A stretch of DNA of 64,000 nucleotides from Devosia sp. 67-54 (GTDB lineage: Bacteria > Pseudomonadota > Alphaproteobacteria > Rhizobiales > Devosiaceae), in the NCBI RefSeq assembly GCF_001899075.1, contig NZ_MKVA01000005.1:682001-746000 (forward strand). The letters are read 5' to 3'. The notes below the pieces were generated by a model. The model saw only the letters and a list, made by a program, of their open reading frames with translations. It had not been told where the DNA came from and did no database searches. Shown here piece after piece: positions 38,581-42,368 of this stretch (the stretch's first letter is position 1; the number at the start of each line of letters is the position of its first letter). The position numbers and the translations under genes are program-made.

Positions 38581-39189
38581 ATGGGGGATGTTTCGACCCT
38601 GAGCGCCATCCAGGAGCGCGTTGTCCAGCTTTTGGGCGACCGCATCATCGAGCAGGCCATCGCCTTCGGCGAGCTGACGGTGCGGCTGCACCGCGAAACC
38701 GTGCTCGACGCGGTGCGGCTGCTGCACGACGATCCGGGGACGGCGTTCATTTCCATCGTCGACGTCTGCGGCGCCGACTACCCGGAGCGCGACGAGCGCT
38801 TCGACGTCGTCTACCACCTGCTGTCGCCGACCAGGAACGCCCGCATCCGCCTCAAGGTGCGCACCGACGACGAAACGCCGGTCCCCTCGATCACGCCGGT
38901 CTTCCCCGGCGCCGACTGGTTCGAGCGCGAGGCCTACGATTTCTACGGCATCCTGTTCTCGGGCCACCCTGACCTGCGCCGCATCCTCACCGATTACGGC
39001 TTCGACGGCCATCCGCTGCGCAAGGATTTCCCGACCACCGGCTACGTGGAAGTCAGGTACGACGAGGAACGCAAGCGCGTGGTCTACGAGCCGGTGAAGC
39101 TGGCGCAGGAATTCCGCCAGTTCGACTATCTGAGCCCCTGGGAAGGCACGGACTACGTGCTGCCGGGTGACGAGAAGGCGAAGCAGTGA
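38581..39189 (+). CDS. nuoC: NADH-quinone oxidoreductase subunit C
   Basis: 202-residue 30-kDa-type subunit. The signature ERE(A)[30 protein letters not shown] is intact, as is the C-terminal [17 protein letters not shown] precedes the ATG. Its TGA stop (39187-39189) is the first three bases of the TGAATGG repeats of the inserted element, so the very end of the gene has been reshaped by the insertion. Confidence 0.97.
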
Positions 39190-39218
39190 ATGGTGAATGG
39201 TGAATGGTGAATGGTCAC
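39186..39218 (+). repeat. Left inverted repeat (four TGAATGG heptads)
   Basis: G + (TGAATGG) x4 + TCAC. It contains TGA and ATG in different frames because the period is seven; the first TGA ends nuoC and the ATG at 39211 starts the inserted gene. Perfect reverse complement of 39594-39626. Confidence 0.97.
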
Positions 39219-39597
39219 GCAGACGAACGAGATACGCGACTATCGCGATCTGATCGTCTGGCAGGAAGCGATGGAGATCGCCGAAATGGTCTATTCGCTG
39301 ACTCGCGCCTTTCCACGCGAGGAGGCGTATGGGCTGGTCTCGCAGATGCGCCGCTCCGCCGTCTCCATTCCATCGAACATCGCAGAAGGATTCGGTCGGG
39401 CGCAGCGTCGCTCCTTCGTGCAATTCCTCAGGATCGCGCAGGGATCTTTGAAAGAACTCGAAACACAGGCGCAACTGGCGGCCCGTATTGGCATGTTGGA
39501 CGTCGAGGGTCTGTCCGACTTGCTCGATCGGAGCGAGCGGCTAGGCAGGCGGCTGGTTCAGTTTGTCCGTTCTCTAGAGCGTGGCGCTTCGCAGTGA
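39211..39597 (+). CDS. Four helix bundle protein (23S rRNA intervening sequence / S23 type)
   Basis: 128 residues, usual for the family. Signatures: YRDLIVWQEAMEIAEMVY, FPREEAYGLVSQMRRSAVSIPSNIAEGFGR, and FVQFLRIAQGSLKELETQ, typical of PF05635/TIGR02436 proteins. These form helical bundles and occur in rRNA intervening sequences and, as relatives, as Avd in diversity-generating retroelements; their biochemical job is not known. The start and stop codons lie inside the flanking inverted repeats, so folding of the mRNA ends would hide both. It is in the same orientation as nuo and would be carried on the nuo transcript. Confidence 0.9.
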   Translation: MVTQTNEIRDYRDLIVWQEAMEIAEMVYSLTRAFPREEAYGLVSQMRRSAVSIPSNIAEGFGRAQRRSFVQFLRIAQGSLKELETQAQLAARIGMLDVEGLSDLLDRSERLGRRLVQFVRSLERGASQ

Positions 39598-39626
39598 CCA
39601 TTCACCATTCACCATTCACCATTCAC
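39594..39626 (+). repeat. Right inverted repeat (four CCATTCA heptads)
   Basis: GTGA + (CCATTCA) x4 + C, the exact reverse complement of 39186-39218. The TGA at 39595-39597 ends the four-helix-bundle gene. The nuoD ribosome site GGAGG starts eight bases further on. Confidence 0.97.
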
Positions 39627-39645
39627 GTTCAGCCGGAGGCCTCTC

Positions 39646-40836
39646 ATGGCTGAGGCGGACGTTCGCAATTTCACCATCAATTTCGGGCCGCAGCATCCGG
39701 CCGCGCACGGCGTGCTCCGCCTCGTGCTCGAGCTCGACGGCGAGGTGGTCGAGCGCGTCGATCCGCATATCGGGCTCTTGCATCGCGGCACCGAGAAGCT
39801 GATCGAGAGCAAGACCTATCTGCAGGCGGTGCCGTATTTCGACCGGCTCGATTACGTCGCGCCGATGAACCAGGAGCACGCCTTCTGCCTCGCGGTGGAA
39901 AAGCTGCTCGGGCTCGAAGTGCCGTTCCGCGGTCAGCTGATCCGCGTGCTCTATTGCGAGATCGGCCGGCTGCTCAGCCACATCCTCAACACCACGACCC
40001 AGGCCATGGACGTGGGGGCGCTGACGCCGCCGCTCTGGGGCTTCGACGAGCGCGAAAAGCTGATGGTGTTCTACGAGCGTGCCTCGGGCAGCCGCATGCA
40101 CGCGGCCTTCTTCCGGCCGGGCGGCGTGCACCAGGACCTGCCGCAGGCGCTGATCGACGACATCGAGGCGTTCTGCGATCCGTTCCTCAAGGTCTGCGAC
40201 GACCTCGAAGTCCTGCTCACCGGCAACCGCATCTACATGCAGCGCAACGCCGACATCGGCGTGGTGTCGGCCGAGGACGCCTGGAAGTGGGGCTTCTCCG
40301 GCGTGATGGTGCGCGGCTCCGGCGTTGCCTGGGATCTGCGCAAGGCGCAGCCCTACGAGTGCTACGACCGGCTCGACTTCGACATCCCGATCGGCAAGAA
40401 CGGCGATTGCTACGACCGCTACCTCGTGCGCATGGACGAGATGCGGCAGTCGATCCGCATCATGAAGCAGGTGATCGCGCTGCTCAATTCGCCGGAGGGG
40501 CAGGGGCCCGTGACCTCGACCGACGGCAAGGTGGTGCCGCCCCGGCGCGCCGAGATGAAGCAGTCGATGGAAGCGCTGATCCATCACTTCAAGCTCTATA
40601 CCGAGGGCTACAAGGTGCCGGCCGGCGAGGTCTATGCCGCCGTCGAGGCGCCCAAGGGCGAGTTCGGCGTGTACCTGGTGTCCGACGGCACCAACAGGCC
40701 GTATCGCTGCAAGATCAAGGCGCCGGGCTTCGCACATCTGAGCGCCATGGATTTCCTCTGCCGCGGCCACATGCTGGCGGACGTCTCCGCCGTGCTGGGC
40801 TCGCTCGATATCGTCTTCGGTGAGGTCGATCGGTGA
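39646..40836 (+). CDS. nuoD: NADH-quinone oxidoreductase subunit D
   Basis: 396-residue 49-kDa-type subunit that forms the quinone cavity with NuoB. Signatures: [23 protein letters not shown] (split) and [16 protein letters not shown] near the N-terminus, and DPVMAEVD-like end replaced by the usual [18 protein letters not shown] precedes the ATG by eight bases and lies just outside the inserted element, so nuoD can be translated independently of it. Confidence 0.97.
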
Positions 40837-41144
40837 TCGCGATTGCACGCAACATTGTCGCTGCTGGGGTACCTTTGGTCGTCTGCTGCGCCTGCGGGCC
40901 GGCGCTCGCGGCCGATCTGGCAGTGGATTGCCAGAAGGTCGCGGCACAGGGCTTCTTTCCTGTGAGCTACAAAGAGATCGGGCAGGCCGATGTGGCGGGC
41001 GTGGGTGATGTCTTTTCGTTCAGCGATGGACGCTGCCTGTGCCAGGCGAGCTTCGAGGATGTCCCACGAACAAGACGCGAGGCATCGGCTTTGGCAAAGA
41101 CCAATCCCGCGCTCGTCTCTAGCCTCTATTGCGAGGTGAACTAG
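40833..41144 (+). CDS. Small exported protein inserted between nuoD and nuoE
   Basis: 103 residues. The GTG start overlaps the nuoD TGA. A signal peptide is visible ([22 protein letters not shown], cut before ADLAVDC). The mature part has a few Cys residues (VDCQ, GRCLCQ, YCEVN) that could form disulfides. It is not a complex I subunit that I recognise. Co-transcribed with nuo by position; nuoE starts three bases after its stop. Function unknown. Confidence 0.65.
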
Positions 41145-41147
41145 TCC

Positions 41148-42367
41148 ATGTCTGTCCGCCGCCTCGCCGCCGATGCCGTCCAGCCCGCAAGCTTTGCGTT
41201 CTCGCCCGAGAACCAGGCCTGGGCGGAGAAGGTCATCGCGCGCTATCCCGCCGGCCGCCAGCAATCGGCGGTGATCCCGATCCTGTGGCGGGCGCAGGAG
41301 CAGGAGGGGTGGGTCACCCGCGCCGCCATCGAGGCGGTCGCCGACATGCTGGGCATGGCGTACATCCGCGTGCTCGAGGTGGCGACCTTCTACACGCAGT
41401 TCCTGCTGAAGCCGGTGGGCAGCGAAGCGCACATCATCGTCTGCGGCACCACGCCGTGCATGCTGCGCGGCGCCGGCGACCTGATCAATGTGTGCCAGCA
41501 CAAGATCGCGCACGACCCGCTCGAGGTATCGGCCGACGGCAAGCTGAGCTGGGAAGAGGCGGAGTGCCTGGGTGCCTGCGTCAACGCCCCGATGGTCATG
41601 ATCGGCAACGACACCTACGAGGACCTGACGGTCGAGAGCTTCGAGCACATCGTCGAGAGTTTCCGCGCCGGCAACGGCAAATCGGTGACGCCTGGCCCGC
41701 AGATCAAGCGGCAGTTCGCGGCGGCCGAAGGCGGGGCGACGACGCTGCTCGAACGGCCCACCGCCGAGCGGACCTACAAGCCGTTCCCGCCGCCGCCACC
41801 TCCGGCCGCGCCCGCGGCGCCGGCGACTGCTCCCGCAGCGGCTCCGGCCCCGGCTGCTCCTGCACCCGAGCCCACCAACAAGGGCAAGGGCAGCGAAGTC
41901 TCCGAGGAGAATGCGCCGGCGGTGAAGGGCACGCCTGCCGAGGCCAAGGTCTCCGAGGGCAAGGCGGAAGCCGAGCGCGTCAAGGCCGATGCCGGCGCCA
42001 ACGCCAATGGCGAGCCCAACCGCGCCATGCGCGAGGACGCCACCGGGGCGGAATCGCCGGCCGGCAAGCTCGACGGCGGCAAATCCACCCGCACGCCGAA
42101 GAAGCTGTTCGACGTCCCCGCCGGGCCGGCAGACGACCTCAAGCTGATCAACGGCGTGGGGCCGGTGCTCGAACAGACGCTCAACGCCATCGGCATCACC
42201 ACCTGGCGGCAGGTCGCGGCGCTGACGCCGGAGCAGATCGAGGCGGTGGAGGCCGAAGCCGGCTTCAAGGGCCGCATCGCCCGCAACAACTGGCTGCAGC
42301 AGGCAGACGTCCTCGCCCGCGGCGGCGTCGAAGAATACCGCCGTGTCTTCGGGAAGGATCCGAAGTA

Positions 42368-42368
<1 letters not shown>
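41148..42368 (+). CDS. nuoE: NADH-quinone oxidoreductase subunit E with long C-terminal extension
   Basis: 406 residues against about 165-200 for a minimal NuoE. The first 190 residues form the thioredoxin-like 2Fe-2S domain with ligands in GTTPCMLRG and CLGACVNAP. Then come a Pro/Ala-rich linker ([19 protein letters not shown] region, residues about 210-245), a charged low-complexity stretch, and a C-terminal helix-hairpin-helix-like domain ([19 protein letters not shown]...). Extended NuoE forms are common in Hyphomicrobiales; the role of the extra domain is not known. Its TAA overlaps the nuoF ATG (TAATG). Confidence 0.93.

Follow-up and report, generated by a model that had tools for sequence, protein, structure and literature searches.

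Between the nuoC and nuoD genes of the complex I operon of Devosia sp. 67-54 lies a 441-bp unit that we read, with a probability of roughly 55%, as an S23 element, a selfish unit resembling the intervening sequences (IVSs) of rRNA and living in mRNAs. Such an element consists of a four-helix-bundle gene enclosed by mirrored arrays of 7-nt units and placed on the sense strand between neighbouring genes of a host operon (Table 1). In the window (the whole stretch of 64,000 nucleotides that was analysed), the layout given in the original prediction, perfect 33-bp inverted repeats of four TGAATGG heptads each around one S23/IVP gene, is exact: the two arms are 33 nt each, 100% complementary, and have 375 nt between them. 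The further claim that the repeats are coding is likewise borne out. The TGA stop of nuoC is supplied by the left arm, whose fourth heptad also provides the ATG of the S23 reading frame, and the TGA of that frame comes from the right arm. The host genes are identified by NCBIfam scores of 331 bits (NuoC) and 622 bits (NuoD), and at the empty junctions of close relatives the two genes almost overlap (TGATG). The heptad repeats are beyond chance, because the 4.2 Mb genome contains 78 copies of the exact 14-mer TGAATGGTGAATGG and none of its reversed control.

Table 1. Features at the nuoC-nuoD junction, in window positions.
Feature	Position	Strand	Details
nuoC, upstream host gene	38581..39189	+	NCBIfam match
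left arm	39186..39218	+	G(TGAATGG)x4TCAC; nuoC stop codon and S23 start codon inside
S23 / 23S_rRNA_IVP four-helix-bundle gene, 128 aa	39211..39597	+	PF05635, TIGR02436, PDB 2gsc
right arm	39594..39626	+	perfect reverse complement of left arm; S23 stop codon inside
spacer, 19 nt, upstream of nuoD	39627..39645	+	GGAGG ribosome-binding-like stretch; GCCGGAGGC, short palindrome
nuoD, downstream host gene	39646..40836	+	NCBIfam match

The assignment to the IVS type also stands, in that an S23 gene (PF05635) is combined with complementary ends that close a long stem (33 bp, perfect); the location is between nuoC and nuoD and not in a 23S rRNA gene. RNA folding of the unit gives z = -8.83, with the structure closed by the 33-bp stem, which is expected given the arms. 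The rRNA IVS of Coxiella burnetii has complementary ends that are cut by RNase III in vitro, and three GACAGAT heptads ahead of an S23 ORF described as decaying (PMC4990558). The two units are alike in the S23 gene, the long-stem complementary ends and the heptameric repeats before the ORF, and they differ in that the window unit sits in a protein operon, has perfect mirrored heptad arrays on both sides, shares its heptad with dispersed sites in the genome, and encodes an S23 protein under purifying selection. The available text of PMC4990558 holds no link of the Coxiella heptads to other S23 genes. In a search of open-licence papers, a link between S23 and arrays was found only for this IVS, and a described mRNA counterpart of the S23 unit was not found, in agreement with the remark in the original prediction that no such unit was known in mRNAs.

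The S23 protein belongs to the PF05635 family 23S_rRNA_IVP (128.5 bits, curated cut-off 33.8) and also matches TIGR02436, four helix bundle protein. The closest solved structure is PDB 2gsc (XCC0516, E 1.3e-26), the subject of a paper whose title mentions five four-helix bundles. Avd of diversity-generating retroelements, homologous to PF05635 (PMC10053308), is likewise a four-helix bundle; unlike Avd, the S23 protein scores below the cut-off of the bAvd model (21.3 versus 40 bits). Profile searches match S23-type models only, with no transposase domain in S23 and thus no Y1/HUH transposase gene of the kind that defines a REPtron.

Across many phyla, S23 genes generally have mirrored arrays of 7- or 8-nt units, the letters of which are free. 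Our set comprises 154 distinct loci, obtained from 160 S23 domains by removing short flanks and identical copies (partial domains were excluded): 82 domains come from a search of relatives in many phyla (the best 80 loci of 520), and 72 from a genome sample, namely a phylum sample, in which 62 of 398 genomes gave a match, and eight nuoC-nuoD loci to which the window had led. A 7- or 8-nt tandem array is present on at least one flank at 107 of the 154 loci, and at 85 of 123 when proteins of about 75% identity are clustered; the remaining 47 of the 154 have no array at the threshold used. Length-7 arrays number 57 on the left and 75 on the right, length-8 arrays 17 and 16, and unit lengths 3–6 and 9–13 give 0–2 arrays each. 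Arrays of unit length 14 (18 left, 8 right) and 15 (5 and 4) are read as doublets and mixtures of 7- and 8-nt units. Shuffled flanks yield 0–1 arrays per unit length, and control windows 650–900 bases away 10/292 for length 7 and 2/292 for length 8.

The two flanks of a locus are coupled to each other. The left flank matches the right flank of the same locus in reverse-complement orientation (score of at least 16) at 94 of 154 loci, compared with 7 of 300 mispaired loci and with 6 of 154 for a same-direction match in the own locus. The unit letters differ among S23 loci, with left and right arrays changing together, and strand composition is polarized, G exceeding C in 70 of 74 left arrays and C exceeding G in 86 of 92 right arrays. 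A further sample from one family has 7-nt arrays at 20 of 30 S23 loci, and the flanks of two of these (L297 and L310) carry GGGAATC-like units. Among S23 copies on cyanobacterial plasmids, all three inspected, of 33 matching plasmid records, have mirrored heptads on both sides. Hidden rRNA intervening sequences were sought at 20 hand-picked, mostly array-less S23 loci, and none was present. Within genome G169 (L222 and L198), and likewise within G149 (L218, L223 and L197), the S23 copies are flanked by a similar unit in both a 7-nt and an 8-nt form (GGCAGTA and GGGCAGTA); from these sequences, it is as if the unit length were able to shift by one base in the two genomes.

S23 loci recur at particular sites: 21 at nuoC/nuoD, 15 beside a dTDP-sugar gene family (named by eye), 14 at one Flavobacterium site, and 7 at cysD/cysN, the last in Proteobacteria plus one Omnitrophota genome (gene names checked for one example). 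Orientation is strongly biased towards the strand of the neighbouring genes. According to our own heuristic gene caller, based on amino-acid log-odds, the left neighbour is on the S23 strand at 101 loci and on the opposite strand at 5, the right neighbour at 92 and 6, with neither side called at 25 of 154 loci. Where both neighbours are called, both lie on the S23 strand at 71 loci, both on the opposite strand at 3, and the arrangement is mixed at 1.

The original prediction proposed a genome search with the repeat and with the protein, and the two outcomes differ: TGAATGG arrays without an S23 gene occupy 17 further places in the genome, and the S23 gene is present in a single copy. A 33-bp repeat private to the S23 unit is rejected by this genome-wide distribution. 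The 17 places share a layout of TGAATGG units, a short spacer and then CCATTCA units; at least two heptads are found on each arm in 12 of them, one arm is degenerate in the other 5, and the spacers are unlike one another between copies. Array copy number differs between arms and among relatives. One such pair (G000:C3:365214-365344, in locus L016, G000:C3:363700-366900, of the same genome) has a phage capsid gene on one side and a head-tail connector gene on the other, so that a prophage or gene-transfer-agent-like cluster carries the TGAATGG unit.

The atpD-atpC junction, where the epsilon subunit gene is confirmed, has mirrored heptads in 5 of 18 genomes of the window's genus, TGAATGG-like in G000, G018 and G009 and GCGAATA-like in G006 and G003; the unit at a given place can thus differ between sister genomes. 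Of the remaining genomes, 11 have another G+C-rich hairpin, G007 has a different palindrome and G004 has only 24 bp. Genomes of the genus that have no S23 gene can contain TGAATGG arrays too (G007, G009 and G017). For the GGCAGTA unit, doublets are present in all 7 genomes in which S23 itself has this unit, in 5 of 23 where S23 has a different one and in 2 of 14 with no S23 (own-unit versus other-unit genomes, Fisher 0.0004; 44 chosen genomes, picked after the flank units were known). In one family of 119 genomes, GGGAATC doublets are found in 42, S23 in 53 and both in 30; S23 is present in 30 of the 42 genomes with doublets versus 23 of the 77 others (p 1.7e-5, kinship ignored).

The presence of the unit at nuoC-nuoD is patchy. 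Among 48 relatives, 8 junctions contain an S23 unit, 29 are empty (≤25 bp), 7 have 44–118 bp without S23 and 4 have unrelated inserts. S23 occurs in 4 of 19 genomes of the genus, all four at this junction. The units are TGAATGG in the window, GCGAATA in G013, G003, G022 and G051, GGCAGTC in G018, GGCAGTA in G045 and GTGAGTA in G058. The eight nearest named relatives of the window S23 (Mesorhizobium and Aliihoeflea, among the best 80 of 520) are all at nuoC-nuoD with TGAATGG-type arms. The window S23 shares 76% identity with its M. albiziae counterpart and 52% with the protein from G018, a member of its own genus, and the corresponding NuoD identities are 82% and 92%. A single clade for the S23 proteins of the genus is rejected (p=6.6e-7), as is the grouping of the window NuoC/D with the Mesorhizobium group (p=6.0e-7), a group defined for this test once the S23 tree was known. 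The trees of S23 and of NuoC/NuoD contradict each other, with p below 1e-5, and exchange of the S23 unit independently of the flanking nuo genes is supported by this sequence comparison. For the full set of 21 nuoC-nuoD copies, a single origin is not rejected (p=0.29). S23 as a vertical gene of the genus is rejected (4 of 19 genomes, S23s not one clade), and the slow vertical inheritance at this exact place in all relatives that the original prediction had named as part of its refutation is absent.

Several other sequences occupy the junction. Unrelated short genes or inserts lie between nuoC and nuoD at L135, L167, L169 and L109, and at L357, L406, L348, L385, L382 and L400; therefore, the junction accepts insertions in general. 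At L124 (G009), a 66-bp gap contains GCCGATTGCCGATA and resembles a remnant of a heptad array with no S23 gene. When filled and empty junctions are compared by eye, no target-site duplication is evident, and flank substitutions leave the exact target unfixed.

A second genus, g61, to which the genome with the named Mesorhizobium locus L028 belongs (100% match), gives a finer view of the same junction. Its 119 genomes (116 matched, 115 with both nuoC and nuoD readable) have 30 S23 units, 79 empty junctions (2–18 bp) and 6 other inserts, so that the empty site anticipated by the original prediction is found in both samples. By type, the S23 units are GTGAGTA (16), TGAATGG (11), GCGAATA (2) and GGCAGTC (1). 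On the nuoC/nuoD DNA tree they are scattered, S23 versus no S23 requiring 28 changes; the empty state requires 31, of which at least 17 are forced by well-supported branches, and the mean after shuffling is 30.9. Junction state is therefore uncoupled from the flanks, to which recombination in nuo could contribute. An uninterrupted full-length S23 domain is retained in 27 of 30 junction copies, and dN/dS within two unit types is 0.09 and 0.06; the S23 protein is, by this measure, under strong purifying selection. Median synonymous divergence within a unit type is 1.44 for S23 versus 0.63 for nuoC in one type and 0.78 versus 0.54 in the other, and pairs in which S23 divergence falls below half that of nuoC are few (2 of 55 and 5 of 120). 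Recent spreading is thus not seen, and judging from synonymous sites the age of the S23 copies within a unit type equals or exceeds that of the adjoining nuo genes. The proposal of a mobile element accordingly holds for exchange independent of the flanks and not for S23 copies younger than those flanks. A recent S23 burst in the Mesorhizobium-like genus receives no support from synonymous divergence, and spread of S23 units by phages gave no match in a search of a phage collection.

We propose that the arrays base-pair with each other in the nuo mRNA to form a 33-bp duplex, and that this duplex could slip in register by whole units, so that loss or gain of a repeat would leave it intact. RNase III or another nuclease would cut the duplex, as happens in the intervening sequences of rRNA; the cut would part the upstream nuo message from nuoD and free an S23 RNA. 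The unit may tolerate its site by ending nuoC at its own stop and supplying a new ribosome-binding stretch for nuoD. It is probable that the S23 protein acts on the arrays, as RNA or DNA; that it would help to maintain or spread them through the genome is the least supported part of the proposal. Counting against this reading are the missing sign of recent spreading, the unrelated inserts at the same junction, which also speak against simple mobility, the unrejected single origin of the nuoC-nuoD copies, the arrays in genomes that have no S23 gene and the 47 S23 loci that have no array. Action in trans is favoured as a candidate mode because the unit is common to the gene flank and the genome. 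A unit that would work at the RNA level is favoured by analogy, because of the sense orientation, the rRNA precedent and arms that pair and vary their letters in step. Should the arms be cut in mRNA, core-metabolism operons (nuo, cys, possibly atp) would bear removable processing sites that differ between sister species.

REPtrons and REPINs are built from RAYT transposase genes flanked by REPs, and a DNA element of that type is an alternative that we consider unlikely. The S23 gene with its arrays would be the master locus, and the gene-less arrays would be non-autonomous offspring moved by S23 and a host enzyme. The likeness is that inverted short repeats enclose one gene and that their unit recurs at dispersed places of the genome: one S23 gene accompanies 17 further array places, the flank unit matches the dispersed unit of the genome in the GGCAGTA comparison, and arrays and S23 co-occur in one family (30/42 versus 23/77, p 1.7e-5). 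Unlike REPtrons, however, the S23 unit lacks an HUH transposase, no transposase domain being recognized by profile or structure matches, and its repeat is a tandem 7- or 8-mer with free, non-palindromic letters and not one palindrome. Nor is a target duplication seen; the spacers of the gene-less pairs are unlike each other, and the strong sense-strand bias is not expected for DNA insertion.

The purifying selection on S23 would also suit a domesticated operon gene whose product binds its own arms and tunes nuoC/nuoD translation, with the arrays elsewhere as binding sites in trans. The overlap of the arms with start and stop codons and the paired hairpins of the genome's own unit at atpD-atpC (5 of 18 genomes) agree with such a role, but the patchy, type-switching presence at nuoC-nuoD and the occurrence of S23 at many unrelated junctions are odd for a specific complex I regulator, and we regard this explanation as improbable. 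Simple-sequence repeats that grow by slippage in intergenic gaps, which S23 merely tolerates, would account for the variation in copy number between arms and among relatives. This is the most disfavoured explanation and very improbable, given that only lengths 7 and 8 (doublets of 14, some of 15) occur, that arrays are rare in the distant windows (10/292 and 2/292), and that the two arrays of a locus are mirror images whose letters change jointly.

Extending the RNA-level S23 element beyond this locus is a more tentative step. The unit may belong to a widespread class of minimal selfish elements in which a non-enzymatic S23 protein stamps a genome-specific unit, of fixed length and with its letters free, into operon junctions and rRNA; rRNA IVSs and the orphan heptads of cyanobacteria and xanthomonads would be members or relics. 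Heptameric repeats are described as GGGAATC in Xanthomonas, often in convergent pairs, and as GGGGA(C/T)T in Nostoc (PMC4692102), and as TAACTGA in Beggiatoaceae, with the general proposal that the mobile component could be a protein that binds the repeat (PMC4679880). Like the S23 arrays, these repeats are 7-nt, intergenic and variable in number; they differ in that no gene is linked to them in the available text of the two papers. S23 genes with mirrored arrays in many bacteria point to a widespread, overlooked small genetic element, which would give a shared setting to three loose ends, the function of S23/IVP, the origin of rRNA IVSs and the cause of heptameric intergenic repeats. The pattern predicts mirrored 7- or 8-nt arrays beside any S23 gene, with the unit repeated elsewhere in the genome.

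Two further features lie downstream in the same operon region. A 103-aa ORF at window positions 40833-41144, between nuoD and a nuoE-like gene, has a signal-peptide-like start and several cysteines, and gave no match in a Pfam search. The nuoE-like protein (window 41148-42368) has its 2Fe-2S thioredoxin-like domain at residues 27-172, followed by a C-terminal extension of about 230 residues that is rich in Ala, Pro and Glu.
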